DNA from: Hydractinia symbiolongicarpus
Lineage: Eukaryota; Cnidaria; Hydrozoa; Anthoathecata; Hydractiniidae
Assembly (NCBI RefSeq): GCF_029227915.1
Contig: NC_079878.1
Coordinates: forward strand, 15,006,001 to 15,070,000
Length of the DNA stretch: 64,000 bases
Direction: 5' to 3'
Position 1 is the stretch's first letter, and each line of letters starts with the position of its first letter. Shown piece after piece: positions 19,801 through 49,760 of the stretch. The notes below the pieces were generated by a model that worked only from the letters and a program-made list of their open reading frames with translations, did not search any database and was not told the origin of the DNA. A program made the position numbers and the translations under genes.

Positions 19801-22800
19801 TCAATGTGAGAGTCAGAATTCTGCCACACTTACACTTGAGAACCAAAACCTGGTAGCGTCCATATGCAAGTCAGAATTCTGCCACACATTAACTTGAAAT
19901 CCAGTGTTTGTGCATGCACTTCCTAAGTCTGCTGAACATCCATTTGAGAACCAGACCTTCTCACATTTAAGTGGAAATCAGATTGCAGCACAGGCACTTG
20001 ATGGACACCATCTATCTCGCTAAATTGTGATGCATTACGATGGCCCTTACTGCACATGGGAAGTTATTCCACACATCTCCTTGAATTGTGATGCTGGCAG
20101 TTGCTCCTTTTTTTATGTCACAGGTTCCTGTTTTTTCATTTGGTTATCTTGAATTTAGCTTACCAAATCTTCCTGTGCCAGGAATATTTTCACTTGGATC
20201 TACTGACCTCTCTTCTACTCGAAAGGTCCTATCTACCAGCTTCGACATCTTGTGTTTAAACTTGGCAATCTTTTTTACATGTTTCACTCTCTGAAATTGA
20301 TTTATGTTTGGTGACTCAGCCATCTCGCAACCACCCATTGCTACCACATTTGTTTCAAATTTCATTTCGCTACTACATTGCTAGCACAATTTATATTTTC
20401 ATCTTATCATAGTTTCACCATACATCGGTAAATCGATAAGAATTCCTCTTTTATACTTTTTCTATAAATCCCTGTAGTAATATATTGCACCAAAAACATG
20501 AGTAAAGACTTGAGTAATTGCTAATAATTTAAAGCCTTTCTCTCACGAAAAAAAAAAGTTGGGCTCATATGAAAGATCTTTAAAAGTTATCTAAGAATCT
20601 GTTAATTTTTTTGAAAAATCTTTATTGGTTCTTGATATATTTGTCAAAAGTTTTACAAATAATTACAGCAACTAAATATTTAAATTTATGTAAAATATTT
20701 AAAATGCCAAACTGAATAACCAAAAAGCATTTTTAGCCCTTATGCCTTGTCAAAACTGTTAAATACAACAGCAACTTAGAGCTAGATGTCATGCATGATT
20801 AGTGAAACTACGTTCCAATTCTTAAGAACTAATCAAGAATTTAAAAAAAATAAAATTCCTAGACAGCTCCAAGCTTGAAATGAACTAATAATAATGCTTG
20901 CACACAATTTACACATTTTCAAAAAACAAAACCTGTCTTTTGATTTCTTAATTCGTACAGTTGGAGATTCATTATGCAAAATTCTATTGTTTTAAAATTA
21001 CGAATTGATACATTTTCAAATAAGAAGTGAGTGATTTTTCTAGAAAGCATCACTTTAATACTAGAGCAATTATTAAAAATGTTTATTTTGAATAGCAATC
21101 AAACATAAATAATGTTGTACATAAGTCTAACCCACCTTGGTATGATCATCTGTTAGAAGATGTTTTTGCATTCCTTGTTGATCAATGCAGTGAGTTTGAC
21201 AAGCTAAACAAAAGGCCTCTTCATAGCTCTCTTCAAGTCTCTAAATTATAAGAAATATAAGCCTTATCTTTATCATAGATTTATAAGATTAGAATGTTAG
21301 AAGTTTGGCACATAAAAATCGAAGTCATGTGATCGACGCATGTAATCAACGTATGTTTTATATTCTTATGAACTAGTCGATAAAACCCGTGGAAAAATCC
21401 ACTTAGACAGAATAACAGTAAAAAAGAACCATTATTTAAATTTTGATGACGTCAGCAATGATCTGTCAACAACAAAATATTTTTTCATGGAAATTTGTTT
21501 TCACGTTGCCTCTATTGTGTAGAGCGTAAACTGCTGATCAAGACAACGTATATGATCATGTGGTTTTAATAAGCAATTAATGAGATATAAAGGTTTAAAA
21601 TGTTTCCTGACGGCAGCAATGGCCTGTCAAAACCCCCAAAATGTTTTTTAAAGATTTGTATACCTGTTGCCTTCATCGTATAGATCTTGAAACAATGATC
21701 AAGGAAATATATAGGATCATGTACTTTTGAGAAACGGTTGCAGAGATATTAGGGTTTGAAGATTTTTTGATGACGTCATTAACCCGTCCATCCCGAAACA
21801 GATTTTGGGACCCAGGTTTGGAAAACTTACCCAAATTGGTCCCAGGTGGTCCCTAGTTACCCACGCGGTGAAAAATTATTGAAGTCACCACTTCGTTTCC
21901 AAGTTATTTGGCCTCAAAGTTTTAAGTGCACTGTAATGGCTTCACTTATGTTAATATACTTTCCTTTGACGTTAATATTGTTTACCGTTAAAGTTTGATA
22001 AATTACAGAACCGTTTTATGTATGTATATGTATTTTATATTTTATCCACTTTGCAAAAGTCACAGACAGAAGCTCTGTATTATTATAAGAGATTAGTATG
22101 CAACAGTTTCCACACTGCAATTTAACACAATCATTCACAGTAGTAAAAAAAAATTTGTAGCGCTACAAATCACAACACAACTGCATTACTCCTGTACCTG
22201 TACAGGCACTGTTGTTTTCGCTTAGGAACTGTAAAAGACCAACTTCAAACTTTAAACTTTGTACAAAAGCCAGATGTTCATCTCCAAGATCAACCTTTTC
22301 ATGGTCAGTAGTGGTAGTGGAAAATCAAAAGATTGCATAAAAAGGAGGTAATTTAAGATGAAGTGCAGGACGCTAAGTTGGTTTTATAATATTTAATTTG
22401 CACATTAGAAGAATCGTAGTGGATACAAGTATATCGGAGCTATTAGTAGAGGTAGTGTCACAAAATTATGATTATTTGTTGATATTAATTGTTGATGTTT
22501 ATTCTTTAGGGCAACTTTTATGTTGGCTAGCTAGTTAATACAAAAAACATTCAACCCAACTCAACCCAGTATGCTTAGTAATCACTAATTGTTTATTAAT
22601 ATTGGTTCTGATAGATAGATGTGCAATTTTACATGGCTAGCCTCACAGATATCTAGGGATATACCCTGTCTATTATTTTCAGGGGGGTCCATGGCTTAGA
22701 TGGGGAATCCTAGAGTATTTAAAACTCATTTTGAGATACAAGATAACTCCTTGCAACAGCTAACAGCCCACACAGAGTGCCATCTCCCCAATTTTCCACA

Positions 22801-25800
22801 CTTTTTTATTTTTTATTTATTTTGTGAATATTTTAATTGGATATATACACTTCAACTAATAAAAGCTGTTGTTAACGTGTGCCTTATATATGAATATATT
22901 TCATAAAATTATATAAAAACAATAGGGTAAAGTGTAAAACAAGTTAAGTGGGGATAAACAAAGGCTAGAAAAGTGAGAACGCAGATTGGGGATAAAAGAG
23001 ATTTCAGACATGCCTGATGGAATCAATAATAAGGGAGATAATAGAAAAATTTATAAATATATTAGCAAATATGTTGAAAAATAGTATAAAACTTAGTAAA
23101 TAAATATTAATAATATTAAAAACCATGTGCAGATAACTTTAAAAACTTGAAAACGAAACTACATAAGAGTAAAAAAGCGAAAACCAGGCCATGAAAAAGA
23201 AAATCACAAAATTTAAGACAAACAAGAGTGGCAAAATACTGGAAAAAAGAATAAAGAATGTCACAAGAGTGGCAAAATACTGGAAAAAAGAATAAAGAAT
23301 GTCACTAATCTCTTTACATATTTTAGATTGAAATACTTGGCTTATGCCATTAGCGAATCCAACTTAATTAGTTGTTCCATGGGCGAAATCGATGGTAGCC
23401 TACGGTGGGTTGGCGAAATAAAAATAATTTTATTGAGAATGTATGGTTGGAGCAACAACGAAGAAAATAATTAAAAAATAACAACGGAGGAGGTTGTTAC
23501 TACAAGCATATTTTTCTATGATTTTTTCGCATAACCCACGCAGTTTAATTTTTTTAGTTGCAAAAGAAAAATAATAATAATTTGTCTCACTGAAAAAATA
23601 TAACTAGCTCTCAAGGTGAAAAGATAAAAATACTTGCATGCTCAAAAACTTGTTTTTAAAAGTTAGCAGCAAAAATTTTTCTTGTGTTGTTAATAATTGG
23701 AAGAGCCACAGTTTAGATGTGAAAGCAGTCTTTTTACAAGGAGGAAAAATTAGACGAGTCGTGCATTTGCTGCCTCCTCCGGAAGTACTGACAAACTGTG
23801 GAAACTAAAAAGATCAGCTTACAGTTTGGTCTCCACATTCCTGGTACAAAAAATTGCTTCAGAACTTACATGCACTACGAAGTATGTATGATTATGCCTT
23901 ATTTTACTGGAAGTGTGATGGTATCTTAGCAGGTATCTTATGTTGCTATGTAGAAAATTGTTTTTATAATGGAAGTGTCTGGTTCATTGTGATAGCCCAT
24001 CTTCAGAAAACAGTTTTACTCAGTAAAGAAAGTTCTGTATCGTCCACGTTTTGGGTCTTAAATTAATGCAAAACCTAGATGGTATTAGAATTCAGCAAAA
24101 TAGATACATAAAAAGCCCCTCGTTTCTTCAATTGCCAGCCGGGACAGCCAAGAAATCAAATCAGATAGGGTTCAAGCATTAGTTAGACAATTACAATGAT
24201 CTGATGCTACTTATATGGCTTGCGATCTTAGCACTTGTGTGAAAAAGGCAACTGCTAGTGATTTTGAAGCATATGCAATTCAGAAAAGTTAAAATCTTGA
24301 TTCCAAACCGGGTGTGGGTTGGAAAACTGTGTATTTGTCTTTTCATTATAAGATACCCTAGGGAGGATTACAAAGTGGATTTGTTTTGTTCCTTTATGTA
24401 AAGGCCAGTAAGCCCCTTTATAATGGCAATCACACAAGTTGAAAAGAGTTGTAAAAAGTGATATGGGAGCTGAAACTATGGATATTTCAAGAGGTGCAGA
24501 GCATGGCATGCTGATAAAAGCACTATTTAAGGAAATCACCTCTATTGATCAGACAATTGATTGCTTTTCGATCCAGTAAATACAACCACAGTTGTTGAGG
24601 ACAAACGCTTATACATCAATATTTGTGCTTTGAGACAAATGATAAACGGAGGAGACATCTTGAAAGTGAAACTTCATCCAAAGAACAAATTGCTGACAGT
24701 TTAACGTAAGGTACATCCTCAGATCTGTGGTGTTGAAAGCATTCACTTGACTTGGAGTGAATCCTTATTGGGTATCGCAACCTCGCTATGCAATTGCAGC
24801 CATATGTTTACCTACATATACGGATTCTTCTGATGTTGGAAAAAACTGACATTTTTGGAAATTTTTGTTCTGTTTATCATTTCCATAGGATTTTGTTTTC
24901 TACTTTCAGCTATATATTTTTCACTATTTAGTTTCTATTTATTTGTGGAAAGACTGTCACTGCTTTTCTTTATATATTTTAGATTGAAATACATGGGTTA
25001 TGCGATTAACTTATAGTGATTGTACTCTTACTAAAAAATAGATGCAAAATTGTGCACAATGAGACATACGTGAATCAATACTGAAAAAATACCAAAACAT
25101 AAAACATTATAAAGTATTCTTTATTAAATTTAGAAAAACATTAATAATTCATTTTATGAGATCCAAGCAGGTATAACTTTAGCTCCCAAATACACTAAGC
25201 TCTTTTTAGCATATCAAGTTCTTATTTTTAGTAAACTAACCAAGCATTTGCTATTTTGTGTATTGTGTGAATGTGATACAACACCAAAATAGTTTTTGAA
25301 AGGCTCACTCTCAAGACATTGTCAAACAAAAAAAGACAAGCACATTTCTTGTTCACATTTACAATTGATTGAATACGTACATTATTACCACTTTGACCTT
25401 TAACAATACTTTTGACTCTAGTGTGGAACTACGATAGTTTATCAGCATGAGCATGAGTTATTGTTAAAAAATGAATTTCACAGTACGTGAAAGTTGGCAG
25501 ATTCATACAACTATATATCGATGGGGCAGCTGTCTCATCCAAAATCGGACCTCAGTTTAGAGAAGAGGCACAATCTTGAAGATGCTTTTCTATAATATTT
25601 ATTGAAGCAGCAATTCAGGTTCAAGAAACTATCAATGATAACACCCAGGTCCTTATAGCTGTCAATGATGTTTATCTTTTTATCTTTCACGAAAATATTA
25701 AAAGAGGGGTGATACTTCGTTCCCTTTTGCGAACTTCGGTGTTCTGCACAAAGTGCAAAAGTTATAACCAATAAGTTAAGGTGCCACAGATGTTTCAGAA

Positions 25801-28800
25801 AATAAAAAATAACAATAAACAAAAAATAATCAAACATAAATAGCATTGAATAACAACAAATAAAGTATTACGTCAACGTCCAAACAGCTAGGTTAATAGC
25901 CAATGCTTGTCTATAAATCTATAATAATCAACTTAGCTGTATGAACACCAGAAAAGAATATAATTCAACAACTTTAATAAATCCAGTGAATACTATTTTC
26001 GATTTCTTTTCCCAAACATTCATAATAGCCCATTTAAAAGATTAATTTGAAAACAGGGAGCGAATTAACTATAATAAGTGAGAGAGTAAAAATAACCTCC
26101 CGCAGTTGAAATTTTTTTTGGCATTAGCGATTTTGATTTAGGTAAAATGCAATATATATTTCCTATTTTCACAATCAAAATTCCATACTTACCGTTATCT
26201 AATAATTATTGTACTTGTCTGTATTTGCATAAATGCAGCTATTTCAGACTAAAGGGTGCTACAATTTATTGTAATATATATCCCTGCAGTCACCACACAA
26301 CACATTTTCAGTTAAAGGGGAACTCCAATGAAAATCACTTTTTTTGTTTGTTTTATGCGTACTCAGAAAAGCATTACTTCACCTGTTTTCCTTATTAAAA
26401 TTGTTGTACTAGCCTTTTGCATATTCAATTTTTTTTTTCATAAAAAACAGACAAGCACGATTTCATTTAGGACTGGACCCGATTATAAATAACGATGTCA
26501 AATCGTGCATAAAGTTTTAGCCAGCGCAGAAAACAATCATGTTAAACTTAGAGTTTACATTTAAATTGCTTTTTGTGTGTACTTTACCTTTAAATTTTTA
26601 AAAAATGGTTAGTTGTTCTGCGTTTGGATGTACCAATCGATCAGAGAAAGGTAAAGAAGTTAGTTTTCAAAGAATCCCGTCTTTGAAAAAGAAAAAACTC
26701 AAACAAAAATGGCTCAAAAAATATGTGGTGCAGGTGATCTACCAGGTGGTGAAAGTTTTTATATTTGTTTGTCGCACTTCACAGAATGAACCTCCAGAAA
26801 ATAAAGTTCCATAAAATATTGCCAATTCGTAAAACTGCCTTTTTAGCTAGTCAACGGTCGAAGTTTGTCATTACTGCTTATTTATTATTTGTACTTATAT
26901 CCACACAACACAACCAAATAATGTTTTGTACATTTTTATATTAAATGGAAGAACATTATACCAATTTCCAATGCAAAAACCAATAAAAAAGTTATCTAGT
27001 TAGAGACATGTTTTTTTGTAGCGCTTTTTTGATGGAAGGACCTGGGTTATTTTAGGAGGTAAATGTGTCTATTTTCTTAACATCATTTTATCAGCGCTAC
27101 TTTCAATCTTTGTTACTGTTTAGGCTGCATCCAATGCAGATAATACAGTTTCTAAAACAACTTTGTCAAAACAACCACTTGAAAATCAGTAGCTTCCGTA
27201 ATGCATTTATTACTTACGATAATGATAAAAGGGATTTTTATTTATGCAATATTAATCCCCTGTTTTAACAACTTATCACGACACGAACATTATTGATCTT
27301 TCGATAACACATTTCAATGGTTCTCCATCACAAAGAATATTTCAACATTACACAAAATTTGTTTGCATTTGTGTGCAAAAAAGCTTGTGCAGAGGAATGA
27401 TATTGCTAAACTGTGAAATAAAAATAAATTGGTTTGTAAAGTAAGAAAGAAGTGATGAAAAATTATTTTACTGAAGCAAATGATAAAGTTTTTTGTCAAC
27501 AAGAATTAAAAAAAAAGCAATTAAATATATTTTTTAATTTTTTAAAAAGGAAAAATTTCACTAAGAAAGAAATATAATATCAATAACTAGCCGGGAAACC
27601 CGGCGTCGAATCGCCGGGATGAGCCACAAGTAACTGTTGTTGAACACCCTAAGGAGCGCTTAAAAAGAACTGCAAACTGTGCAACACAGTCAGGTGGAGC
27701 GCTTTAGTACAGCTATGCAAATCAAGTGAAGGGCACACACCATTATAGTGTTGCGACTTTAACATATTTTTCAAAAAATAACTTTCCCGCAACAAAGGCT
27801 GAAATAAAAACAGTTTACAACCGTTGTGACTCTGTCATAGCAAAAACAACCGGTCAATATTATTTTATTTTGCGGAATAAGTTTTTGTAAAAGTTAAAAA
27901 ATTAATCGTGACACCGGATTGCGCGCTTAGTCCAGTTAAATGGTGTTACACAGGTGTATAGGGATAACACCCTTTTGAAAAAAACTTTCTTGTAGACTCT
28001 ATTTAAATGAAAACAGAAGAAACAGTCCTTCGCTTCTTGCACAGGGCTAAGCGGTTAGTCCAAGTAAACATTGTTGGACATTCCTACAGGCGTGATTCCC
28101 AAGAAAGTTTAAAAATTAATTGTCACAGCGGGCTGACCCGCATATGCGTAACAGCCTTTTCCAAAAAACAGGCTATTGTTAACACTGAGCTGACTGCTTA
28201 TTACAGTTAAACAGACTTGAACAGTACCCTTCTCCAAAAAAACTTTATCACAACTTCGGTTTAAATGACAACACAGAAAACAGCCTGTCGTAAAACCCTC
28301 CAGCTAAAGCAATTGCTCAGCCATTTTATTTGCAAAAAATGTTTTAAGAAAATAATTAAAGATATATAGCTACCTAGCTAAACTGCATTTAGCATAAGAT
28401 TTATTGCTGAGAATATTGCCATATTGATAGCCAAACTGAATTTTTATACTATCACTTTTTGGGTAAATATATGAGATAGCTAAATGGCTATATTCTCAAC
28501 ATAAAAATAAATGTTAGGTTGGAGAAAAACCTCTCATACCAAACAAAATTAGTACAAAGTAAGGCTATTAGCTAGTAGCCTTCAAAATATTCATTCCTAG
28601 CCAAAAATTCTAAAACTGGTGCGTTTAAGATCTGCACGTACCTAAAAAACGTGACAATATATTTATCTTCACATTTTAGAACATAAAAAAAACAAATATT
28701 ACAAATATAAAAAGCTTATAGAAGATAAAAAGGTGAAACAGACTTAGAAACAACACTGACCACCATTACTTTTTAAAAACTAAAATGGCCATCATGTTTC

Positions 28801-31800
28801 TTCGTTGGCATGTCTAGGCCGCGAAAGTCTTGATTGGTTTTTCAAAGAATCAGGCTTTTTGATTGGTATACATGTGCGAGGGGTCAAAACAAAGTCAGTT
28901 AAACTGTCAGTAAAACCATCCTATTTGTTTTCTGTGGCTCCTGGGCGGAATCGCCGATTAAGGTCATGGGGGTAAATTATTATTAAAAATGGCGCATTTA
29001 AATAATGAGTTCATTTTAATCACTTAATTTGTTTTTTAAATTAGAAGTTTATCAATTAAATTAATTAAATTATGTAAGGAAATAAATTTATTTCTGTAAT
29101 TTATTTTGACAAATCATAAGATTTCCAATTAAACAACCCCCTGGTCTCTGAAAATTCGCGGAAAGATCAAAGGAATATCGGTAACCCTTTTGAACAGACA
29201 AAATACGGCTATTATTATAGAGATACTATCATTCGAAAATCGTTGCTTTTTATCTCCTAGCTATCTTGGAAAAACAACAGGAATTTCGTTGGATTTGACA
29301 GATTCAACACAGCACATGCTTTAGCATCGGTTTCCATTGCTCTACAATTTCCACATTCACACCAACTTGTATTACTGGTACGTGGCTCACGTCAGTAAAA
29401 GACACCTTGCCGCTTTCTACATTGTTATTAATTTCTCCCTCGTGAGACACAGGAGGTTAGAAGTCGTATGGGTATAGCTTTGCAAAGTTTTTTTCATGAA
29501 GAGAATTATTCGATTCTAAGCTTTCTAAGTTATAATCTTCGTCATTATTAAAAGACATCTTATCAACAAACAATGCAAACAGTAAGTAAACAAAACTTAT
29601 CAGGCGAGCTGTCAAGCTTACAGATTTGTGGGTTGATGTGACGAATGCTATTTATTGGGACACAGTTCTCTTAGCTTTACACAACCTTGAAAATTCTTTG
29701 AAATTAAAGATGTTTCTAGACGCAGTAAATGATAAATGAAAATTTTTAACGACTGTAAAAGTTTAATTTTGACATAACTATGTTTAGTCTTATCAAAATA
29801 ACATTTTTTTTAAAAAAGATTTTTTTCACTGGAGTGCCCCTTTATATTAAAAAAATTATCAAAAATATTTGTGGCTAAATCGAAGAAAAAGTGCAGGGCT
29901 ATTTTATGTTTTTTACTTCTAATTCCATGCCATTTTTTAGAAACATTTAGCTAATTTTATGCCAATGCCTAAATTTGATAACTGTATGATTCAATGGTCC
30001 TTATTAATTTCTCACAGATTTGACGAATCTCCTACACAAACTGGATAACCATTAGAAAACTTGTTAAACACATAAAATGCTTTGAATTTGCTTTGACAAT
30101 CTATACTGTTACCACCAAGGTTCATTGCTAAACAATAGGTTAAATCAATCAAGTATAAGGGTTTCCCTCTTAAATTTTTTTCTTGTTTTTATCAACTATC
30201 TGCAAAGCTTGTAACATTTCTGCCTTCGTTATTAAATTTTTTTGGCTTAGGAATAAACTGCCTTGACTAAGACTTAACTTGCCATCTTCGGAACTAGTTG
30301 TAAATGTCCTTTGGTTGATAAGAACTTTTTTTGACCCAGATGCATGACACTTTGCATGTGATTTTACTTGAAATAACCCACTGTTGTCAATTTTGAATGC
30401 TTCAACACAAATTTTACAATAAGCTGAAAATTTATCATTTTTAACAAAACTGAGCCAAGGATAGCTTTTTCCCCACTCTGGACGGTGTTTAATCAATCAC
30501 TATTATAATTACTAACCTTAAAAAAAGTTGTTCTACTCATAAGAATAATAAATGCTGAGTATAGAGCAAAAAAAATTAAAAACAACTGCATAAACAAAAT
30601 TTTGGAGAACACATACAAAAATTATGATTTTTTAAGCCAACAAATAAATTTTATGCTAATTTTATAATTTGTGAGAAAAAAATTGCTCATTTTAGGATTT
30701 TTTTGATTTTATGCCGGCTGAAAGTGACATTTTTGTGAAAATAGTTTTTAAAAAAGGCAACAATATACAAAAATTTAGTGAATTAATCCTCATTTTCCTC
30801 TTCCGATGATTCAAAATCAAACAGTTTTAAGACTGTATTAATTTTTGTCGAAGCCATTCACTAAAGCAAAAGAGCACCCTAAGTGGATTAATTAACTCGC
30901 AAATATTTTTATTATTACATTATTTGTGAATAAATAAAAAAATAAACTTATAAAAAAAGTTATTTGTCGTTGATATCGTTTTCTTTAGTTCTTAAAAAAC
31001 TTAAAATTATCTTAAAAACAAGTGGTATAACCGGGAGAAGAACGAACAAAAAAAAAATCTCTGTACTTCACAATTTCGCACCTCAAAAAAACTTGAAATC
31101 TTTCTTAAAGTTGCAATAGAAATTGCAAAGAATGGATCATAGTGTACATTTAAAACAGGGGTTTTCCCTGTAACAAAACTGACGTCAAACTCTTTAAAAA
31201 CACTTTTCATAAACAAACAAGCAAACAGACTGCTGGGTAAAATAACGTGTTTTGTGATACTTGTTTTGTTAAAACTTTTTATTATCATTAAAATAAATAT
31301 TGTTAAGATAGAAATTCAAGAAAAATGTCATTTTGAGATTGCAAATTTGTGTACTTTATTCACTTTGATATCGCGAGTTGGCAAAATATTTAATCGCTGG
31401 AGGAATAATGAAGGGTAACAAACTAATGCATCATATGGCTGGAAAATTTAAATTGTCTCTAAACTAACCTTATTTTCACATTAGTATGTATTTGGCTGTG
31501 AATTTTTCGGGATGGAAATGGATATTGATATAGGCTTATTAAACTTGCAAATACTAGTGGAACAAACAAGTATCTAAACGCAAGCTCTCACATTTCTAAG
31601 ATGTTTAGTATGTATACATTTCTTTTAGATGTTTAAGTCATGCGCTTGCAATCACAAACCTAATACTCTGAAGCCTAGAATTGTGGTTTCTGCAACAAAG
31701 AGCACAATTACCTTGTGTTTAATCGAAGTGATATGTTCCTCCTTGAGATGTAAAGTTGCAAATTCTTTGTAATTGCATATACGGCAATGAAATTGGGATT

Positions 31801-34800
31801 TAGGTTGAGGCCAAAACTTGCCCAAGACTTCTTCAAATACAGAGGTAATAAATATATTTACATCACCAATTTCATCAATCTTTGCTGCTTCAAACAATTG
31901 CTTTAGATTATTTCTTGAAATATGCTCATAAATTTCTGAAAAGCTATATAACAATACAAAAATATATGATGCATAAGTACAGAAGAATTTAATTTTGTAC
32001 TCATTTCTCTTTAAAGGTAGTGTCTGCTACAAAACTTAAAGTTAGTTTACATAAAGAAAACATGTTATTATTAACGAATTTCAGGTTAAAATTTAATAAA
32101 TACAAAGTACCAGTGTAATGTTGTTCTTTTAAATTTGAGAGTTTCATCCTCGTGTAGCTACATTAGTTTGCCATATTGTAAACACGACCGCGCATGAATG
32201 CGAGGCTTATCTATTATGTCACCGCCTATGTCAGTGCCCAGGTTCAAAATCGGGACCGAAAACATGGGGAATGTATGAAGAACAAATTTAATTTGTAATG
32301 CCGAAGATTTAAAAATTAACCCCCGGCTACGAGCCAGACGCTTTCGAATAAAAAATGTATCGTCTGCGATAAGTATTTTTGGATCGTGAAAGGCTATTGA
32401 CAGACTGCAAAAATAGAAATCACAAATTAATAACATGAATCCCTAAATTTATTTAACGGAAATAAGTAAATTTATCTGTCAAAGTATGTATGTAATGTCA
32501 TACATAAGCAATAGAATAATTTTATTTTTATTTTTTCTTAAACATTTTTGAATGCCATGTGTTTTAAACAATGCGAAACGTTGAAGATTATGCTAGTATG
32601 AACACACACTTAAGCATAGACCAAACATCTATCCGGTCGGGACGGAACTGTTATAAAAAACACTAAAAAAACGTGGATACGAAGTTGCCAGACAGTTTAT
32701 CATAAGCAAAGAAATGTCCCAAAATTATCAGTTTAAGAACGAACATGTCTTGGTGCTCAGCGTTCGGTTGCAGCAATAATAGTAAACGCGACAAAGAAAA
32801 AAGTTTTTTTCGTCTACCAGGAGATCCAAATGTACGAAATGCCTGGGTAAAAGCTATAAACAGAACAGAATTGCCGAAAAAAGTTCTCTTATGTTCTGAT
32901 CACTTTACGGAGAACTGTTTCGATAAAAGCTGGAGCGTTCAAAATGAATTGTTTTATACCGAGAGAACGGCAAAAAGGAAATTGGTACCGGGATCTTTGC
33001 CAACAATTTTCCCACACAAACCGCGACCTAAGGAAAGGCAAACTTCCAAGAAAAGAGCTGAAAAAAAAAGTTTAAAAGAGGTACATACGGTTCCTAAAAT
33101 AATTCCTAGGCTCATTTTTAAGCGGTATTTTGTAGAATTATTTTATTTTATTTGTAATCCAATTCAAGGTTATCGAAAACGCTATAACGAGGGATGAATT
33201 GCCACATGATGAACCTTGCGCGTCCTGCGAACCTTTACCCTCGACATACTCGATTGGGATACAAACAGAAAAAAGGAAAACAAGAGATTTTGGAACACAG
33301 GTGCCGTCACCAAAAGTTCGGGACTATGGAAATCAAATGGATTTTAGGCCAGACATTCACGCCCAAACACTGCCCATGAGGCGCTGTAACAGAGCAACGC
33401 AAATTACGAACCAGTACTCGAGTGTTAATGATGGTAAAATTAATATCAACTTTTTCGTAAAAAGAACTCAAGGGTTTGTAAACAGTTTCACTTAAGTTTT
33501 ACTTAAGAAGCGTGTAAGTATTTAGTTAAACCGTTAAAATATGATTTACTTTTAGATGCCGAAAAGAACCAAGATCAAAGCATGGACGTGGTAAGCAGCG
33601 ATGACGAAATAGACGAGGATGAAGAAGATGTTGAAAGTACAGAAAGGATGAATAGTATTCACGGTATGTTTCAGTTGAACAACATAGAAGAGTTGGAAAG
33701 ATTCTTGGAGGTCCTTGGAGTTTCTTTGTCTTTTAACTTAAAAACGCAGATTGCTGAAGAATCAGCAGTTTCAGACCCTCTCGAAAAAAACAAAGAAATT
33801 GATGTGAACGATGACGAATGGCTGAAAAACTCTCTTGAAAGGTGAAAAGTTATTTTATAAACCAGAAGTAATGAAAGTAGTCTTTTTTATGCAAATTTAT
33901 TTTTTAAACGTTGCATATTTAGAACTGCGAAAAAAGATCCCGATTTCGCAGCTATCGATTCGCCCGATGACAACACAGAATCAGAATTCGATGATGATGA
34001 TTCTGAAAGCACACCATCATTATCAGCAACAAAACCTCTTCACAAACAAAAGGTTTTTCTTGTGTACGAATTACAGTTACTGCAACTGGTAAAATACTGT
34101 TTAAAATGTGGAGCGACAATCTCTTTTATATATGTTACACTTAACGGTTATATTTAAAAACAAAATTTAATTGTCTCCACTCCAAGAAAAGTCCACCTCT
34201 GAGACTCCTGTCTCTTCACAAAAACCCACGTACTTTCCATCAGGGCTCGGGTATTCTTGACGAATCCTCGTTACTACACAAGCTGGGATTACTCGACGTA
34301 CACTTCTTCCTAATCTGGTGTGGATAAACCAACAAAACTGCCGATAAGCAGCGTATCTATAAGATCTAAACATAACAGCAAATAGTCATCTACTCCAGTT
34401 ACGGCCATCGCATAAATACATGTTGTAATATTAATACCTGTTGGAAACATTATTCCTGCTTGATAAACCATGACTTTCTCTATCGTGCAAGCCCACTAAC
34501 GCCGTCCAAAGGTTGTTTTTCAAGAGCACGACTGGTACAAAGTCAGGATGGTCAAGTATGCAATGTTTGTCTATAATAAAATATAGGAACGTCGATTATT
34601 ATAAAAACATTTATACTAGTCATGCGTTTCCAGTGTCTCTGCCGCCCCCTCCTTAGAGACAAAAAAGTAGGCTGGAAACGAGATGTAGGTAACTGTTCTT
34701 ACCGTTCAGATGGGCGTACTTTATCTCGTCAATTTCATGACAACAAATGCATTCTTGCTGCGATGGCATAACCTCGCAGTTTTTACATAAGCACCACTTG

Positions 34801-37800
34801 TCCTTATTCAAGGTACTTCTTGGAGGTTTCGCACTTTCTTCATCCTCATCAGATGAGTCATTAAATTCGGGCATTTCATTTGCGCCAGGCGCTCTCTGGG
34901 GCTCATACTGAAACCCTATAACTTTCGGTTTATTGGATAGTCTAGATTGCGCCATTATTTAAAATTAAAACCGCCTAGTTTTATAGACCTATAAATGATT
35001 TGAAGAATATTTTTATACCTTCTCCCGTCTGAAAGAAAAAAAAAAGGAAAAGTTTTTATTTTCAGGGGGGCTTGTCGCGTTTGTCGCGTTTTCGCATGTT
35101 CGGTCTTTCAAATCAACCAACCACTGACGTCAAATGCATATTTACGCATAATAATTATTTTTACCAGGCCTTTTTTCGCGCATGTTATTCAGAACGTCTC
35201 TAGCTGTGCTTCGACATGGCCAAGTAAAAAAAGTTTTGTTTATATGTATTTCCAGAGATTAATAAAAAACAGGTATGTCATTTCTTTATTTGTATATCTA
35301 TATCAGTTAATATAAAAGTTTTTATTTAGTAGCAGACACTACCTTTAAGGGACTTTTAAAAAACAGATTTGGTGAAACTGCCCAGAAGGGGACAAGACAG
35401 GGAAAGAGCACGATGGCTTAGTGTGGGGTATCAAAAAATGTTTTATCTATAATTTGATCTTTTGATTGTTTTTTAAGTTTGTTTACTTTACTGCAAATCA
35501 ACTTAATCATCATTTTTGAACACTCCTAATTAATATGCAAGCATGGGCAAAGTATGATGTAAAGTGTAAAACAGTAAATACAGGCAAAATCAGGTCCTAA
35601 AGAACTAAAATACTCATTAGGCCACATCTAGTTGGAACGTTGGTCATTGTCATTTGCCCACTGTGCTCTGTCTATCTGCTGCGAATCATCTTAATAACCC
35701 ATGTTTATCTACTGCCTTTTTGCTTATTATTTGATATAGCTAACACTGTTAAGTTTTACTTGTGTTTTCATACTTTCAAGAAAGTGAACTTCAAATAAAA
35801 AAATAATTTTAAAAAAGTCACCTGGTGTCTCTGCATATTGGGGTTATTTCCTGCTTATTACTTTTTGCAGATTTCACATTTTTTTGCTGAAATTCTATGG
35901 ACAGAGACATGTCTAAGGTAATGTTCAATTTATACATATTTATACTTGAGATTCATTTTCAGGTTGAGTATTTTTCAAAACAATCAGCTACATACCCATT
36001 ATATTGGTTTGATGCATTTCTGTTTGCTTATGGTTTTCAGTAGAAGTGACATTTGTCTTTTCATCAGGAAGTACAAATGTTTCATTACATACCATACATT
36101 CAAAGCCAGAGTAACTTCGAGAACATTCTCTACCTTCTAAACAATTAATATACAGTAGCACAGGTTTATAACACTGGGAAAACATCATAATGCTTCAATA
36201 AACAACTAATCATTCAAACTTTCAACAATTTAGGTCATAGTTTGCATAGTGCCCTTTTATTTTTAATAACCCCTCCCCTATTATTACAATCCCACCCTTT
36301 TTATTTTAAGACTAACCCCTCTGTATTATTTCTAGGTCAAGCTTTTGTCTTCATCTTCTAACCGATATGTAATGCAAACACCCTATTAATTAGAACTCGT
36401 ATTCAAACACATCAGAAAGAATTTTTTTGTTGTTGTTGTTAAAAAATATATGGAGCCTACTAAAATGCGATGTTATAAATAGTTCTAGCAAATTAAATTG
36501 TGCTCTTGCTTACTTTATTTGTCCACTTTGTCTGCCTTTCATAGCCACTAAATGTGACTAAAAATACCTGATATTTTTCTAAGTCAAATCCCTCCCCCTC
36601 CTAACTATGTAGGTTATGTTAAGTACTACCCCCTGTAATTATCAACCCCAAGAGTTAAGAGTGAGTAAATAATATGCCTAGGATAATTATTTTCAACAAT
36701 GATACACTATTCTTATTGATTCCTAAATTGCACTCTACCTACTTAAATTCCTGACACTTTTGTTATCTTCTTCCAAAAACAACTTCACTTTGTCGTGATG
36801 TTTCCGAGTATTTTTGTGCATTTTTACCAATTGCTTTGACTTTATGAATTTTTCATTGCAAGCCAAGCATTCTGTCACTTTTATCCTCTTCACTGCATCT
36901 AGTTATAAAGTTTGTAAAATATATATACAGTGTATAATTTTTGTTACGCTCTATTAAGCACTACCTATTTATGCACAGGACAGCAACCATTTACAAGATT
37001 TTTGTGGGTATGGTGCCCTGTGATATGAAAATATGATATTTCCTAAGAAACATCTTATTTACGGTTTTAAATATCTTTATGATCACATAGCAAATTAAAA
37101 AAATGAAATGAAAACTTTAGATACAATTATAACATCGTAAATAATCTCTATCAAGATTATTTTAAAGGAATGAAAATATTTCTATTTCACATCACAATAG
37201 ATCATTAGAATGTATTGTTAACATCTCAATCTAACATTCATATATTATAAGTAATGTTTGATTTAGTTAAGGCAGTATAAGGTTCATCATTTTTTGCACC
37301 TTCTGTATATATTCTATACTGTATTATACTATATACAATAAAAAATTACCATCAGTTACAGCATCCAAATATTCATCATCCATCTTTTTCAGTACAGACT
37401 GAAACATATTCTAAGATTTAATGCACAGATCTTTCCATATGATTTGCTTTAAGCTTTCAATTTATGACTAAAAAAATGCCTGCAATTTTTCACAAGACCC
37501 AGTATTATTTAATTACAATTGTTTGATTTGCTTGTTCAATAAATATTTCTTTAAATTCTTTTATAACAATTAATACTTAACTAATTTTATGCCTAATGTC
37601 TAAATAAATGATGTTTGCATGAAAGCTATATAAGGGATCGTCTCCACGATCGTTTCGAAAATAATTGTTTCAATTCGTATAATTTTTTTTGAAACAATCT
37701 CTATACGAATTCAAAACGATTTGAAAATATTTTTTGCCGAAAAAAATCATTTCAAATTCGTTTCAAAGTAGTTTAAAATCATTTTGGTGAAACGAAAATC

Positions 37801-41038: not shown

Positions 41039-44000
41039 CGGGGCTGGAACTCTAAGGAGTGAAGGTGTCGTGAAGTGAAGGTGTCGTGCACGGTAGGACA
41101 GATGTCAGATGTGAGCATCGTCAGACCGTTACCCAGCTATCACATCACAAGGTAGATAACACTAGGTTGAGGATGGCTAGTGTAAATGTTGGTACTCTGA
41201 GAGGTAGAGCAGGTGAAGTAGTTGAAATGTTAGAACGTAGATCTGTTGATATGTGTTGTGTTCAGGAAGTTAGGTGGAGAGGAGCTTCAGTGAGATTTGT
41301 GGAAGGTAGGAGGGCAAGGTATAAGCTTTTTTGGATTGGTAATAGTGATGGATATGGAGGGGTTGGCATATTCGTTGCGGAGAAGTGGGTAGAAAAAGTA
41401 ATAGATGTTATGCGTGTTAATAGTCGTATTATAGTGATAAGTTTTTGATAGGTAATAGGATTGTCACTTTTCTGTCAGTTTATGCTCCACAGTGTGGACT
41501 CAGTGAGGAAGATAAAGATAAGTTTTATGATGAGTTAATAGCAGTCACATCAAAGTTTGGAGACACTGAACTTGTCATGGTGGGCGGCGACTTTAATGGT
41601 CATGTTGGGAAGTCATCTGAAGGTTATAGAGGTGTGCATGGAGGCTATGGATTTGGGAGCAGAAATAAGGAAGGGGAGAGATTGCTTGAGTTTGGAATGG
41701 CAACGGACATGGTGGTTTGCAACACATCATTCAGTAAGAGACAGAGTAGGCTGATAACATATGAGTCAGGTGGTTGTAAGACACAGATAGATTACTTTTT
41801 GGTTAGAAAGTCAGACAAGAAAGTGGTGAAGGACGTGAAAGTTATATCGGGGGAAGAGTGTGTTTCCCAGCATAGGTTGCTGGTTTGTGATATTATCTTG
41901 AAGAGTGTTAAAGAAGCCAAGGGAAAGTACAGGCCCCGTCGAAAAGTCTGGAAGCTAAAGGAAGAGATTGTAGCAGGACAATTTAGTGCAAAAGTTCAGC
42001 AGTTGGCCTACAATAGTCAATGTGATAGTGACAATGTTGAAAGTACTTGAACTACTTTGAAGAATTGTCTTCTAGAAGCTTCTGATGATACCTGTGGGTG
42101 GACGAAAGGACCAGCTAGACATAGACAGACCTGGTGGTGGAATAATGAGGTTGACCAGTGTATAAAGGAAAAGAGGAAACTTTGGAAAGAGTGGAAGTCA
42201 GGTGGTAGTAAAAATATTTACTTACAAGCTAAGCGTCGCGCTCGTACAGCAGTGTATAAGGCAAAATCAGAAGCAGAGAGAAACAGATTTGCAGATGTGT
42301 TAAGAAGGGAAGACCAGCGCAATGAGGTATTCAAGATAGCAAAGCAAATGAAGAACACTAATCAAGATATTGTAGGTGAGAAGTGTATACGTAATGATGA
42401 AGGTGTTTTGGCTAGCACAGAGGAGGAGAAAAGGGTAGCTTGGAAGAATCATTATCAGAGGTTGCTTAACACTGAGTTTGATTGGGACGAGGATAATTTG
42501 TCTGATGATGATGTCGTAGATGGCCAGCTATGCAGATCAAGACAGAATGGGTAGTGGAGGCTATTAGGAAATTGAAGATTGGCAAGGCTGCAGGAGTATC
42601 AGGTATCGTTGCAGAGATGGTAAAAGCATCTGGATATATTGGAGTTGAGCTTATTACAAGTCTTGCTAACCAGATTATAAAGGATGGTGCTATTCCGAGT
42701 GAGTGGCAGTCGAGTGTAATAGTGAACTGTTTCAAGGGCAAGGGTGATGCATTAGAAAGGGGTAACTATAGAGGTTTGAAGTTGGTTGATCAAGTAATGA
42801 AAGTTATTGAAAGAGTGATTGATAAGTTACTTAGAGAAAGAATTGATATAGATAAGATGCAATTTGGTTTTGTACCAGGGCGTGGCACTACAGATGCAAT
42901 ATTTTTACTCAGACAGCTTCAGGAAAAGTATTTAGGAAAGAGAAAGAATCTCTATTTTGCCTTTGTAGATTTAGAGAAAGCTTTTGATAGAGTGCCACGT
43001 AAAGTTATTTGGTGGGCTATGAGAAAATTAGGTGTGGATGAGTTGCTAGTTACGATGGTTCAGTCTATGTACAGCAATGCTAGAAGTCGTGTCAGGATTA
43101 ACGATTCACTTAGTGATGAATTTAGTGTAAATGTTGGTGTACATCAGGGTTCTGTACTTAGTCCTTTGTTGTTTATTCTAGTCTTAGAAGCGCTGTCGAT
43201 GGAGTTCAGAGCAGGTTGTCCATGGGAGTTATTGTATGCAGATGATTTGGTTCTCATAGCAGAGTCGATGGAAAAATTAGTTGAAAAATTTGAGAAGTGG
43301 AAGAAAGGACTAGAAGAGAAAGGGCTGAAGGTAAACACAGCAAAGTCTAAAGTCATGATAAGTAGCATTGCAGCCAAGTGTGACCTTGTAGTTGGAAAGT
43401 GGCCTTGTGGAGTTTGCAGGAAAGGGGTTGGTAGTAACTCAATTTTTTGTCAGACTTGCAAGCATTGGGTACATAAGAATTGCAGTAGTATTAGTGGAAG
43501 GTTAAGAGCTGGCATACAGTTTGTATGCAAGCGTTGCAAAGGTGAGATTATAGAGAATGAAGTATTTCCAGCTTTAATGATGTACAACAATGGCTCGTTA
43601 GAGATAGTTAAGAACTTCTGTTACTTAGGTGATATGTTGGGCAGTGAAGGGGGTGTTGGAAGAAGTGTTACTTGCAGGATAGGTTCTGCTTGGAAAAAGT
43701 TTAGAGAGTTACTTCCTTTATTGACTAGCAGAGTCCTGTCAATTGAGGTAAAAGGTAGGTTGTATGAGGCCTGTGTAAGAAGTGTTATGTTGTACGGTAG
43801 TGAGACATGGGCAGTGAAGCAGGAAGATCTTGACCGTTTAGAAAGGAATGATATGAGAATGGTTAGGTGGATGTGTAATGCCAGTCTGAGAGACAGAAAG
43901 AGTTCAGATGAGCTAAGAAGCAGGCTAAGTCTCCGTAGAATTAAAGATGTTATCCAGATAAGAAGATTGAATTGGCTGGGGCACTTGGAAAGAATGGAGG

Positions 44001-44229
44001 AGGATAATTGGGTAAGAAAGTGTAGAGACTTGATAGTTCCTGGGGCAAAGCCCAGAGGCAGACTGAGAAAGACTTGGCAGGAGGTTATAAGGAAAGATTT
44101 GATAGAGAGGAAGTTGAGTTTAGATCTAACACAGTCTAGATCAGATTGAAAGAGGGTCATTAATATACCCCGTCCAACCCATGCTAGCATGGAAAACGGA
44201 CGTTAAGCCGAGAATGATGATGATGATGA
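41039..44229 (+). mobile_element. RTE-like LINE, full length with target-site duplication
   Basis: A 9-bp direct repeat, CTAGCTGCA, flanks it at 41030-41038 and 44230-44238, so both ends are defined and the element is 3191 bp. It has a short 5' UTR, endonuclease, reverse transcriptase, a zinc finger and a C-terminal domain, and ends in a (TGA)n tail. Length, single-ORF plan and microsatellite tail fit the RTE group. Partial copies are at 6512-7478 and 50079-50784. It lies about 0.5 kb upstream of the seven-finger gene's first coding exon. Confidence 0.9.
41173..44149 (+). pseudogene. RTE-like LINE ORF (endonuclease, RT, PHD-like finger), frameshifted
   Basis: The EEP endonuclease spans about 41173-41990 (MASVNVGTLRGR, VCCVQEVRW-type box, GGDFNGH, then SQHRLLVCDI). 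RT spans about 42530-43400, with FAFVDLEKAFDRV at about residue 143 and YADDLVLIAE at about residue 235 of the last open segment. A PHD/RING-like Cys/His cluster (PCGVC ... CQTCKHWVH ... CKRC) lies at about 43398-43545 between RT and the C-terminal domain (GSETWAVKQEDL, RRLNWLGHLERM). The frame breaks near 41445 (shift), at a TGA at 42048-42050, and near 42530-42554 (shift), so this copy cannot make the full protein. RT and the downstream part are otherwise open for 539 residues. Confidence 0.9.
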
Positions 44230-44238
44230 CTAGCTGCA

Positions 44239-45430
44239 TAGCGAAAAGGTAATGAAGAAATTATATTGAAAATTAAATTCGTATGATCATTTGTTTAAAA
44301 ATTCGTATCGCAAGTCGTATTGAAAAATTTTAATAATTCGTATGAATATTCGTTAAGTAAGAATATAATTCGTACCACAATTCGTATCACAATTTGTATG
44401 AAAATTTGTATGGAAATCGTATAAAATTTGTATAGGATTTTTTAAAACTCGTATAACTAATTAAGGTTATACCCTTATCGAAAATCGGAAATTTTTTTTC
44501 ACATAATTAGTTACGAAAGGTTATTTTCAGACTATATATCCATATTTTTTCTGTTATAACACACTTGTCACGATTAAAAATATTCAGCCTCAACAATTAC
44601 TTTTTAAAATAAAGTTCATAAATAATTAATTAGTTCTGCCGAATATAGTTTAAGTCTATGCGCTTGCGAAATTGTACAGAAAAAAATGACGTAACTATTA
44701 AAGAGAAACGTTAATAACAAAAAAGATGGCGCATTATGTAGAAATTTAGGACGATCTTCATTATGCTACATTGCACAAGCTTTAACTTTCGATAGCATTT
44801 TCGTTTTACTTTAAAATTTTCAGACATGCTTGGTGAATCATGCAGTCATGATACGGTGTGCGGAAATCTTTTTATCTAGAATATTTTACTTTTAACAGCG
44901 TTCAATGTAGCAGGGGATGCTAACAAAGAATCTTTTGAAAAAAACAAAAGGCTATTGTTAAAAAAAAAATGAACAAAAAAAACCTGCACACCGTTTTAAC
45001 AAGGTTAACCCAAGGTTCATTTAAGCACAAAAGCTAATAAGAAATAATGAGGTTGTAAAATTTTGGAGCTCATAGAAGCCGATTTTTTTCTTGTTTATGA
45101 TACATTTTTAAATAGAAATTTCTGCTGACTCAGCAATTTTAGTGTTGAGTTAAAATCATTTTATTATGTATTAAGGCCTATATTTTCAGGAAATAGTAAA
45201 AAAATGGTATAAATATAATACTGAGTAAATAATTCAGCTATTTGGACAGCTAAAAAAGGGTTACTGCCACCTTAACACTATACAAATGGTATACGGTTTT
45301 TATACAAATTGTAAGCAATTAAATTCATATAATTTCGTTTAAAATGTTATACAAAATTTGTAGATGACCCCTAATTAATAGCAAGACAATAAATCTTGGT
45401 AGAGTGTCTGTATCTCTATAATCATATGTC
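44239..45430. other. low-complexity sequence after the LINE
   Basis: 44280-44460 is a string of degenerate ATTCGTAT/TTTGTAT words, echoed near 45280-45370 by GTATAC and TATACAAATT words in opposite sense. This could be a decayed foldback element like 37634-38839. No gene is seen. Confidence 0.35.
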
Positions 45431-45808
45431 CCCAAACTTAACCAAAATTTACATTTCTACTTTTCTACATATTTTTTATAAGAACCAGGAAATTTGGCTT
45501 CAGCCTGAAATTGTTTTTATTTTCTTCTTAGAATTTTTTACCATTTTTATTCTTTAGAAGTTTTTGCAACCTACAATCTAAATTTCGTAAAATTACAACA
45601 ATTGATTCTGTGAAAATTTCCCAAACTTAACCAAAATTTACATTTCTACTTTTCTACATATTTTTTATAAAAACCAGGAAATTTGGCTTTAGCCTGAAAT
45701 TGTTCTTATTTTCTTCTTTTAAATTTTTTACCATTTTTATTCTTTAGAAGTTTTTGCAACCTAAAATCTAAATTTCGTAAAATTACAACAATTGATTCTG
45801 TGAAAATT
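45431..45808. repeat. tandem duplication, 189-bp unit
   Basis: Two adjacent copies (45431-45619 and 45620-45808) begin CCCAAACTTAACCAAAATTT and end near TGATTCTGTGAAAATT, with only scattered differences. They abut the truncated end of the LINE at 45833. Confidence 0.9.
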
Positions 45809-45832
45809 TATAACTTGAAAGATATTTACAAA

Positions 45833-47998
45833 TTATTGAAAATTAAATCCAAACTGGTTCTTAAACAAAATTTGATTTAATTCAAGAAAATTGTAAGGTC
45901 TTTTATGCACTAATTTTTCTATGAACTTATCAAAAACAGATAGCAAAGATATTGGTCTAAAGTTATTCAGATCTTGCGTGGTACCGCCCTTAAGTAGAAG
46001 GATGACTTTAGCAACCTTTAAAGCATTAGGAAAAGTACCAGTTAAAAACGAGTTATTAATTAAACTGCAAAGAGGAATTATAATCAGATCAGCCACAGAT
46101 TTTAATATGTTAATAGGTATACTACCAGGACCTAAACTTTTACTTTCCAAACCTTGAATAATATCAAGCACCTCCTGTGAAGTAACATTGGATAATAAAA
46201 ATTCATTGTCTTATTTTTTAAGAATTTGTCAGGCGAGATGTTCTTTATTTTAGGAATATTTTTATCTAAATTAGGACCAGCATTCATAAAAAAGTCATTC
46301 ACATGATTGACTATCAATTTTGAATCGTTCATAATCGAACCATTGACATTAAGTTGAGAAATGTCTTGATTTGAGTTGTTTTTTGTGTTGATTAAATAGC
46401 GAATACCTTGCCAAGTTTTCTTTATATTATTGCTATGAGTTAGAAAGTAAGAGTTGTAATAAGCAATTTTAGATTTTTTTAAAGTATGGTTAACCCTATT
46501 TCTAAAAAGTTTATAAGCTCTCTTCACATTATCATTTCTAGGTTGTCTTTTTTTCCTCGTAAACAATTTATTTTTTAACCTGATCATTTTTGAGAGGTTT
46601 TGGTCAATCCAAGGTTTAGTTTTAAGTTTCAGTTTTAGTTTTTTTCATAGGTGCATGTCGCCATAAAAAATCATTCATTAAGTTATTGCTTTCACCTTCA
46701 ATCTTCCAATTTTGAATTGAGATATCATCTCTAAAGGCATCTGCATCATACTTTGAAAAGTCCCTTGAAAATACAATCTTAGGCTTAGAGTCTAGTTTTG
46801 AGCGATTTACAGAAGCAAATTGGGAAAAGTGCTCTGATAGGGAGAAGTAGATGTTCCCACTACAGATTTTATCCCAGATATTATTGCTAAAAATATTATC
46901 AATTAAAATGGTGTTTAATTTTCTACCACCCTAGAGGGATGTTGAATAAGGGGAAGAAAGCTATAGCTACAGAGTAAGTTAGAAAAATTAAGAAAGGAGC
47001 TAACTTTCTCTAGTTTTAGAAGATTTATGTTAAAGTCAACACAAATGTAAACTTCTTTATTTTCTTTGGCTAATTTCTTAAGGACATGTTCCATATAAAA
47101 AAGAAAATCGTCTAAATTTTGTCTAGGATGTCAGTAGATGCAACCACAAATAATGTTTTTACTTGTTTTGTTAGAGATCTCAATCCAAGTACTCTGGAAC
47201 TGAACAGATTTAGCTCCGAGGTCATGTCTTGTAAAAGGTTTGTAAAGACTATTAACAAAAAGGAGTGTACCACCTTTAGCTTTGTATGTTGACGTAGAAA
47301 ATATGTCATAACCGGCAATGGAAATGTTGGAAATAAATCCATCATTTTGCTCAGATGTTTCTAAGATTGCAAAGATATCAAGAGGTGAAAGACAGTCAGA
47401 TAAAAATTGATGTAAATTTTCAAACTTAGATTCAAGGCCATTGACGTTTAAGTGAAAGATATTCAGTTTATTTTTAGCATTAATATTGTAAAAAGACTGG
47501 ACAGTATGACAGTGACTGTCTACTAGACTAGGAATTTCTTCTACATCATCACCAATATTATCGTTAGGTTTGAACTGAAAATCAAGCTGACTAGCATTAG
47601 ATACTATTGTTGCATTAGGAATGTTGTAACTAGTTGAAAAAGAGTCAAGATTGTTTAGGTTATGCAATTCTGAATTATCTAATAGGGTAAAAGGAATGTT
47701 TTCATAACGAAATTTTACGACACACCAAAGGTAATACCAGCAGCTATTGTCAAGCTCATTTGTGGTTAGATCATTGTAGGTTTTTGGTGATGTCCCATCA
47801 CATTTAATGTGACAACATTTATCACAAAGGTCACACTAAATAGCTTTTTGATTACGTAAAACATTCTTGTTGCAAACACTACAAGGCCATTTCAAGTTAT
47901 TAGTTGGATTTGGATTTAGGGGAGTGTTGTTAATTAACGCCTCATTGATCCTGTCACTAGTCAGGCTCAGTTTGAGTTGAGAAGAATTAAAGGCCATT
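45833..47998 (-). pseudogene. LINE ORF2: PHD finger, endonuclease, partial RT
   Basis: Start MAFNSSQLKLSLTSDRINEA. The PHD-type cluster KWPCSVC ... CDLCDKCCHIKCD ... SCWYYLWC has an in-frame TAG just before CDLCD. The endonuclease starts at LNIFHLNVNGLESKFENL and includes ILETSEQNDGF. After frame changes come the linker (RAYKLFRNRVNHTLKKSKIA) and RT start (GPGSIPINILKSVADL, LNNFRPISLLSVFDKF, NQFGF). The YADD box and everything beyond are absent. Confidence 0.75.
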
Positions 47999-48615
47999 TA
48001 ACGCAGTCGTTGTAGAAAAGAGAATAAGAACAAGTGAAAAAAGAGGAAGAAAAGAGAATCAGACCAAAAAAAATATACCAAAAGCAACTAATATGGTAAC
48101 AAAATATGGAATTGAATTGAAGCTTGCAAAATGTATGCAAAAAACAGTCAGAAAAACAAACACGAAACAGAAACACACACAAAAAAAAGTATGAAACTAT
48201 GACTAAAAGCAAGGAATATAATTCCAAAAGAGTGTAACACTAACCTTTTCCGATACAATTTCCACTTGCTCTCGCTAAGTTTGTAGCAAAATATGTCTAC
48301 GAAATACCGAGAAAATGATACAAAACGGCTCACAAAACCAGGGCATTTAAAAAATCTCACAGCTAAGTGTGCCATTATTAATGTGTACAAGCTTTCCGCA
48401 AATCAGATGTAAAACTTGAGAATTCAAATAAAAAAGGCGCAAAATTAAAGGGCGTAAAGAAATCATTCCACAGGATGTACAGCTTTTTTAACAGGGAATA
48501 CAAAGTTTGAAAATAGTTTTTCTATGTCAATATCAGTGCGAATTTTCACAGGTTTACCGTTTGCTTCGAGGTACAGAAAATACGCTTCGTTTTGATAGCG
48601 AAATGAATGAATTTC

Positions 48616-49176: not shown

Positions 49177-49189
49177 GTTGAATTAAGGT

Positions 49190-49760
49190 GTTGGCCCATG
49201 ATGATTTGTGTATTTTCACCGCATCAGTAGCACGTCCGCACCCGCCGATGACAAAAAGAGAAAAAAAGACCCACCCCGTTTACAAGAAGAGATTGTTGAT
49301 GTTAACAAGGTATACCAATTAAGGCTGTAATATAGGCATAGCAAATCCAACCATTATTACAACATAATCGTTGTTGTTAGAAATGTGAAGAAACCTGGCC
49401 CGCATCCTTACTATATGTATCTATCACGATGGACCAATGATAATCAGGATGGATTTGTAGTTGAACGCCATGGAAATGCTTAGAAACCACTTGCTTCCAG
49501 CTACTTCCGCAAAGATCTTTCAGTTTTTACTGAGGTACGGGACAAGCTGGTGAGTGGTACGTTCAAATTGGCAAACAACACGACACAGTGGGTTCTGTTA
49601 GTGAATCTGTAAGTAATCCAAAGCTGGTACACAATCAAAAACAAAAAATGTAACCAACCACAAGTGCATTAACAAAAAGTGAAGCAGAGATTTAGATTGA
49701 CTTGCTGCACGGAGACACTTTTGTTCAAACAGTTAGGTTTATATTTTGTATATTTTCATC
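49190..49760 (+). pseudogene. decayed coding sequence, family unknown
   Basis: Plus-strand pieces in shifting frames read KKPGPHPYYMYLSRWTNDNQ, DGFVVERHGNA and VRDKLVSGTFKLANNTTQWV, with stops between. The FKLANN-type phrase resembles one at about 53510-53550 (KVANKLWLTDSS in another frame), so this and 53405-54720 may derive from the same gene family. Not identified. Confidence 0.3.

Follow-up and report, generated by a model that had tools for sequence, protein, structure and literature searches.

A TTAA-bounded element with two convergent genes

The stretch of Hydractinia symbiolongicarpus DNA analyzed here (64 kb, C4:15006001-15070000 in the organism's own genome; hereafter the window) contains at 32011-35348 a transposon-like element, element A, with TTAA on both sides and two convergent spliced genes inside. 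The left gene begins with a THAP domain, and the right gene encodes KolX, a protein resembling the C-terminal ballast domain of P2X7. The parts of element A are as follows, where L009 is a full-length relative elsewhere in the genome.

32011-32014, no strand: left copy of the TTAA target site (sequence read)
32015-32030, + strand: left terminal inverted repeat (TIR), AGGTAGTGTCTGCTAC, 16/16 against the right TIR; 79 genome sites resemble TTAA plus TIR
32745-33080, + strand: THAP-transposase exon 1, THAP domain (Pfam PF05485, E 2.1e-16)
33169-33433, + strand: THAP-transposase exon 2 (frame and splice sites)
33556-33841, + strand: THAP-transposase exon 3 (frame and splice sites)
33923-34157, + strand: THAP-transposase exon 4, with the start of the transposase body (KVFLVYELQLLQLVKYCLKCG), a deletion junction, a short tail of chance codons, and the stop
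34120-34121, no strand: point at which 1,809 bp present inside L009 have been deleted, with a 2-bp overlap
34167-34365, - strand: KolX (P2X7 ballast) exon 3, read 34365-34167
34438-34570, - strand: KolX exon 2, read 34570-34438
34703-34955, - strand: KolX exon 1, read 34955-34703
35329-35344, - strand: right TIR, identical to the left TIR at 16/16 positions
35345-35348, no strand: right copy of the TTAA target site (sequence read)

The ends of element A read TTAA-AGGTAGTGTCTGCTAC ... GTAGCAGACACTACCT-TTAA, and their inverted match extends over 33 nt at 85% identity. Its perfect 16-bp inverted repeats flanked by TTAA, reported in an initial annotation of this DNA, were confirmed, and a window-wide scan found no other 16/16 TTAA-RR pair. 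Of 100 random sequences matched to the window in dinucleotide composition, none gave a pair of at least 15/16 (0/100), and a 14/16 pair arose in 3/100. The termini, AG ... CT, fit the 5'-RR ... YY-3' pattern given for Kolobok elements in the relevant passages of Kojima and Bao (2022, PMC9587614). Each of the five introns has GT..AG borders, and both frames run without internal stops; the four-exon THAP frame encodes 373 aa and the three-exon KolX frame 194 aa. The two stop codons are separated by 9 bp (34158-34166), just as the initial annotation had it. No Rfam family reached the gathering level, and ARAGORN found no tRNA.

The match to the P2X7 C terminus with no channel part, another point of that annotation, was borne out by Pfam (P2RX7_C, E 7.1e-19), and a KolX profile run against the PDB matched P2X7 alone (4/4 sequences, best E 1.6e-13). 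An earlier exon 3 start at 34356 (191 aa) was replaced by the acceptor at 34365, which regains residues common to P0001, an annotated relative. KolX retains the C-x-C-x2-C, CC, C, PAC pattern; the seven zinc-site cysteines align to P2X7 in order, with ligand pairing assigned by motif order, and the equivalents of the two conserved arginines R546 and R578 are present. This agrees with the resemblance of KolX to human P2X7 residues 476-595 described in PMC9587614, and the zinc-cysteine pattern and both arginines are shared with the free-standing ZCD/nanor-like proteins in the parts of Rump et al. (2020, PMC7016195) that we used. KolX differs from P2X7 itself in having no channel part.

Among the proteins returned by a search with KolX are four annotated ones of H. 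symbiolongicarpus (P0001, P0002, P0006, and P0016, on C7, C13, C1, and C4). P0001 (LOC130648668) is the KolX of L009 and its near twin L010, with residues that agree from RAPGANEM to the end. Its annotated start, MRNYAFDVS, resembles a subterminal stretch of element A (MRKYAFDVSG) and of element B, a decayed copy in the same window (MRNYAFDNSG); the gene prediction therefore begins inside the transposon end. KolX searches of viral contigs and prokaryote genomes found no relative.

Full-length relatives and the truncated transposase

Element A has 52 matches listed in its own genome. One region, C7:32672531-32677669, matches both halves of element A at 98% with ~1.8 kb of extra sequence between them, and it belongs to one of two full-length relatives.

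C7:32672527-32677672: L009, 5,146 bp from TTAA to TTAA
C7:22103767-22108911: L010, 5,145 bp

The 30-bp flanks of L009 and L010 are identical, so they represent one insertion that was later duplicated. They lie in opposite orientation on C7, ~10.6 Mb apart, and nearby repeats are mirrored too (C7:22086596/32694731), an arrangement that reflects either a misassembly or a large inverted duplication.

Element A is 97.7% and 97.6% identical to L009 on the two sides of the junction and lacks the 1,809 bp between. Up to the junction, exon 4 shows 92% identity over 25 residues to the first transposase segment of L009. What is missing from element A can be read in L009: VDGQCDTPGHN, STDRH, DPWH, an H2CH zinc finger (H-TANK-H..C-E-H, HTANKH..CEH), and the C-terminal part. 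We take segments of L009 to be the members of the DDE triad, an assignment made from the general pattern of the family and the motif list in PMC6004289; pieces of this catalytic core are thus present in L009 and deleted in element A. The box in the THAP domain of element A reads SLPTIF, of the AVPTIF type found in Kolobok transposases, whose motifs in the passages of PMC6004289 are H2CH, THAP (C2CH, P/W/F, AVPTIF-type box), and DDE. Each protein search with the THAP frame yielded a single protein (P0017; P0018), and the transposase reading was therefore taken from relatives in the same genome.

Because the 1,809-bp stretch encodes the transposase core, the THAP gene of element A is not a separate gene but a transposase truncated to its N-terminal part by the deletion, and its last residues are chance codons past the junction. 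The THAP domain of the initial annotation thus stands (E 2.1e-16), while its status as a gene of its own does not: an element carrying an intact stand-alone THAP gene is ruled out by the deletion relative to L009. The 9-bp gap between the stops is likewise a by-product of the deletion; in L009 the corresponding positions are 3828 for the end of the transposase frame and about 3966 for the KolX stop. Element A is thus a Kolobok deletion derivative and not autonomous. Among the 52 matches listed, its junction is spanned by the self-match only, so as far as these go the deletion has not spread; other copies bear other internal deletions. KolX occupies the same place and orientation in L009 as in element A.

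A genome search for the 16-bp terminus, proposed in the initial annotation, returned 79 sites within 2 mismatches of TTAA plus TIR, against 0 for a reversed control pattern. By our own reading of the pattern matches, TTAA is exact in 68/79 of these sites, and 17 pairs are in facing orientation no more than 6 kb apart. TTAA stands at both ends of eight fetched copies, including L009 and L010, by construction of the search. Evidence on insertion comes from L013, which lies in a long interspersed nuclear element (LINE). When joined, its flanks align with two of the window's LINE copies, at 43302-43702 (387/401) and 50778-50444 (320/335), and these paralogous empty sites have a single TTAA, with a 4-base difference a few bases off; a third match does not cover the insertion site. 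The joined flanks of six other copies have no empty-site counterpart in the window.

Shortened elements of several kinds were seen among the relatives. L051 and L055 are ~2.7-kb elements with 15/16 TTAA TIR pairs, KolX matches, and no transposase match, that is, KolX-only shortened elements. L032, L035, L036, and others are ~2 kb long and carry the terminal repeat of element A except for its last base (..CTAA), some with THAP/transposase matches and none with a KolX match. A preferential retention of KolX in shortened copies was considered and given up, as copies found by their TIRs include some with transposase matches and no KolX match (L011 and L035, for example) and some with neither (L031 and L034).

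KolX and transposase across the genome and the window

A search of the genome with KolX gave 227 matches, and the best 150 of the 227 were grouped into 124 loci. For the transposase we used segment 5, which is missing from shortened copies and has 150 matches, all listed, and we scored a KolX locus as linked when a transposase match lay no more than 4 kb away. Such a match was 3' and convergent at 45 of the 124 listed loci, in the 5' divergent position at 0, and in any arrangement at 46. Over 200 shifted-position trials, the convergent count averaged 0.2 (maximum 2) and the count in any arrangement 0.75 (maximum 4). With element A's own family set aside, 40/112 listed KolX loci still had a convergent 3' transposase. 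The initial annotation had asked for such a count, and had named ballast genes that were single copy, unlinked to THAP genes, and outside TTAA/TIR boundaries as the contrary outcome; the loci found are multicopy, and 45 of the 124 listed are convergent with a transposase match.

We also read 12 loci outside element A's family, drawn from the 17 highest-ranked ones, leaving out C2:28454113 and four whose score equalled that of a locus already taken. Transposase pieces were 3' and convergent in 9/12 of them and on the 5' side in 0/12, and a TIR pair of at least 14/16 surrounded KolX in 6/12, against 0/240 shuffles. In some other families of this genome, stop-free transposase frames of 600-700 codons stand beside KolX, such as C7:8580136 with KolX at C7:8580977.

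The window itself holds three further, decayed ballast loci.

8630-10883, - strand: element B, with TTAA and 14/16 TIRs; ends 65-70% identical to those of element A
9263-9411, - strand: element B, transposase C terminus, convergent with the KolX remnant
9095-9178, + strand: element B, KolX exon 3 remnant, convergent with the transposase C terminus
606-3850, - strand: element C, THAP start and DDE/H2CH transposase pieces; 85-88% identical to L044
1015-1371, + strand: element C, KolX exon(s), N-terminal half, on the strand opposite to the transposase
26605-26679, + strand: locus D (extent 26605-29651), the weakest, THAP start (E 1.8e-4)
29260-29651, - strand: locus D, KolX exon 1 remnant (E 2.1e-5)

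The transposase pieces of element C align to L009 segments (E 1e-4 to 4e-8) and include the sole match to the H2CH pattern in all six frames of the window; by Pfam alone, element C falls below the cut-offs (THAP E 0.029, P2RX7_C E 0.045). Its ends are degraded, and a TIR pair looked for there was not found. A search of viral contigs with the element C transposase gave no relative. Within element B, an insert at 9477-9815 recurs at 22617-22801 and 25730-25795 and has the look of a short interspersed repeat.

A TTAA pair at 43502-50643 (14/16) was considered as a third element and rejected, as it falls within inverted copies of a LINE. This LINE has long reverse-transcriptase/endonuclease frames (41074-44229 and 50095-50841), and its 3' piece is repeated in inverted orientation at 97% identity, which accounts for the false pair. 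A host gene family marked by the motif FEEVxxxxWPQPxSxxHCRICNYxEFAT is represented by two exons, at 260-631 and 31709-31942, both on the - strand; each exon adjoins a Kolobok copy, and element A is inserted ~70 bp from one of them. A 401-codon open frame at 59781-60983 looks, by eye, like a BTB/POZ-type host protein.

Identity of element A and the role of KolX

Element A is very probably a copy of a Kolobok DNA transposon of the Kol0 lineage that has lost the middle and C terminus of its transposase and that itself encodes KolX. The assignment to Kolobok, already made in the initial annotation, is supported by TTAA, 5'-AG termini, the THAP domain, and multicopy relatives whose transposase appears to be of the DDE/H2CH type. 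That the ballast protein is a second product of the element, as had also been proposed, is supported by its identical site and orientation in the 5.1-kb relative and by the convergent arrangement at 45 of the 124 listed loci. Placement in Kol0 would follow from KolX as the second protein, not from a position in a transposase tree.

In the passages of PMC9587614 on Kol0 (Kolobok-1_XT type), elements encode a transposase and KolX, and they share with element A the TTAA site, 5'-RR termini, and a second protein with similarity to the P2X7 ballast domain. They share with its family a DDE transposase with a zinc finger, and cnidarians are among the listed hosts; element A differs in having no transposase core. 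The Xenopus XKol/T2-MITE Koloboks (PMC6004289) likewise have TTAA, AG termini, a THAP + DDE + H2CH transposase, and many shortened copies, and differ in their TIR sequences; KolX is unmentioned in section 11 and the passages of that paper at hand. A literature search aimed at a Hydractinia Kolobok with KolX found none in print.

Several observations weigh against the Kolobok reading with an element-encoded KolX. No intact transposase was seen in element A's own family among the copies read: L009/L010 carry an in-frame stop and, close to where THAP begins, a change of frame, and L011 has a stop and a deletion. Among the matches listed, 79 of the 124 listed KolX loci have no transposase within 4 kb, partly because only listed matches could be scored, and at L050 a transposase and a TIR pair of at least 14/16 are both absent. 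The predicted structure of P0001 is poor (mean predicted local distance difference test score, pLDDT, 50.7), and although the best eight Foldseek matches to this model are all P2X7, the best E is 9.7e-3 and none is at or below 0.001.

A single locus could not by itself distinguish a transposon from two host genes, one for a ballast and one for a THAP protein, that happen to lie between chance TTAA repeats. This explanation is refuted by the multicopy relatives with the same ends, genes, and orientation; element B has both ends in common with element A, and random sequences gave such a pair in 0/100. We regard it as having next to no probability. An equally slight chance attaches to an element of the piggyBac type, the other TTAA superfamily. 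TTAA sites are shared with piggyBac, which is the subject of a passage in PMC9587614, but the termini of element A begin with AG, the Kolobok pattern in that paper, and the transposase has THAP and H2CH. Moreover, KolX keeps C-x-C-x2-C, CC, C, PAC, whereas the piggyBac proteins in those passages are reported to lack most of the seven cysteines.

Deleted P elements (KP) are kept because they repress or help their family. The THAP-only protein and KolX of element A might likewise form a regulatory derivative kept for repressing or helping its family, and not a dying copy. Both frames are open (373 and 194 codons, with GT..AG introns), KolX is open in L012, L014, and L015 too (L014 and L015 have a common right flank and so count as one insertion), and the comparison with L014 leans toward constraint (nonsynonymous rate dN 0.013, synonymous rate dS 0.053, on 6 and 6 changes). 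Set against this, the exact deletion occurs once among the matches listed, so it is not spread; the KolX frame is broken in L013, L016, and L009/L010, the last of which have a single stop in the upstream frame; and the comparison with L009 (4 synonymous and 6 nonsynonymous changes) gives a dN of 0.013 against 0.011 for noncoding sequence (7/629), with no clear constraint. The counts are too small for either comparison to show selection on KolX. A regulatory derivative is improbable, and a defective Kol0 copy remains our preferred explanation.

Kolobok transposases recognize the ends of the element, excise it, and insert it at TTAA. In the fuller relative of element A, the left gene is one spliced transposase (THAP, then a DDE core with the H2CH finger), and the right gene, converging on it from the opposite strand, is KolX, the small ballast-domain protein. 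The transposase would bind the element ends via THAP, excise at the TIRs, and insert into TTAA. Element A would now be mobile only if another copy supplied transposase, and its THAP fragment could do no more than bind the ends, possibly acting as a repressor. For KolX we consider an accessory or regulatory role in transposition the most likely, as a best guess.

The initial annotation also suggested that stand-alone ballast genes in invertebrates may often be transposon cargo, with consequences for the origin of the P2X7 C terminus. This is correct and has been in print since 2022: the relevant passages of PMC9587614 identify the proteins of Rump et al. as parts of Kolobok elements, previously not pointed out, and derive P2X7 from a P2X4-like gene fused with KolX. 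Element A is a new copy and family of this known Kolobok/KolX type. Rump et al. give one or few (<10) ballast genes per species, compared with 124 listed loci here, many of them remnants, and their paper (PMC7016195) does not mention transposons (0 matches for 'transpos').

Our analysis adds independent, quantified support, drawn from a single cnidarian genome, to the published view of free-standing P2X7 ballast domains as transposon proteins. A further implication is that gene predictions named 'P2X purinoceptor 7-like', such as P0001 (LOC130648668), can be transposon genes. The role of the ballast domain before P2X7 becomes testable, as the protein and its likely substrate both come with the element. 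A more speculative idea, which we hold to be possible though rather doubtful, is that KolX, binding nucleotides and zinc, acts as a regulator of Kolobok transposition and that vertebrate P2X7 inherited this switch by capturing a KolX exon. If true, Hydractinia would be a living system for testing the original job of the ballast domain, supplied by the 124 listed ballast loci, some of which lie beside long open transposase frames.

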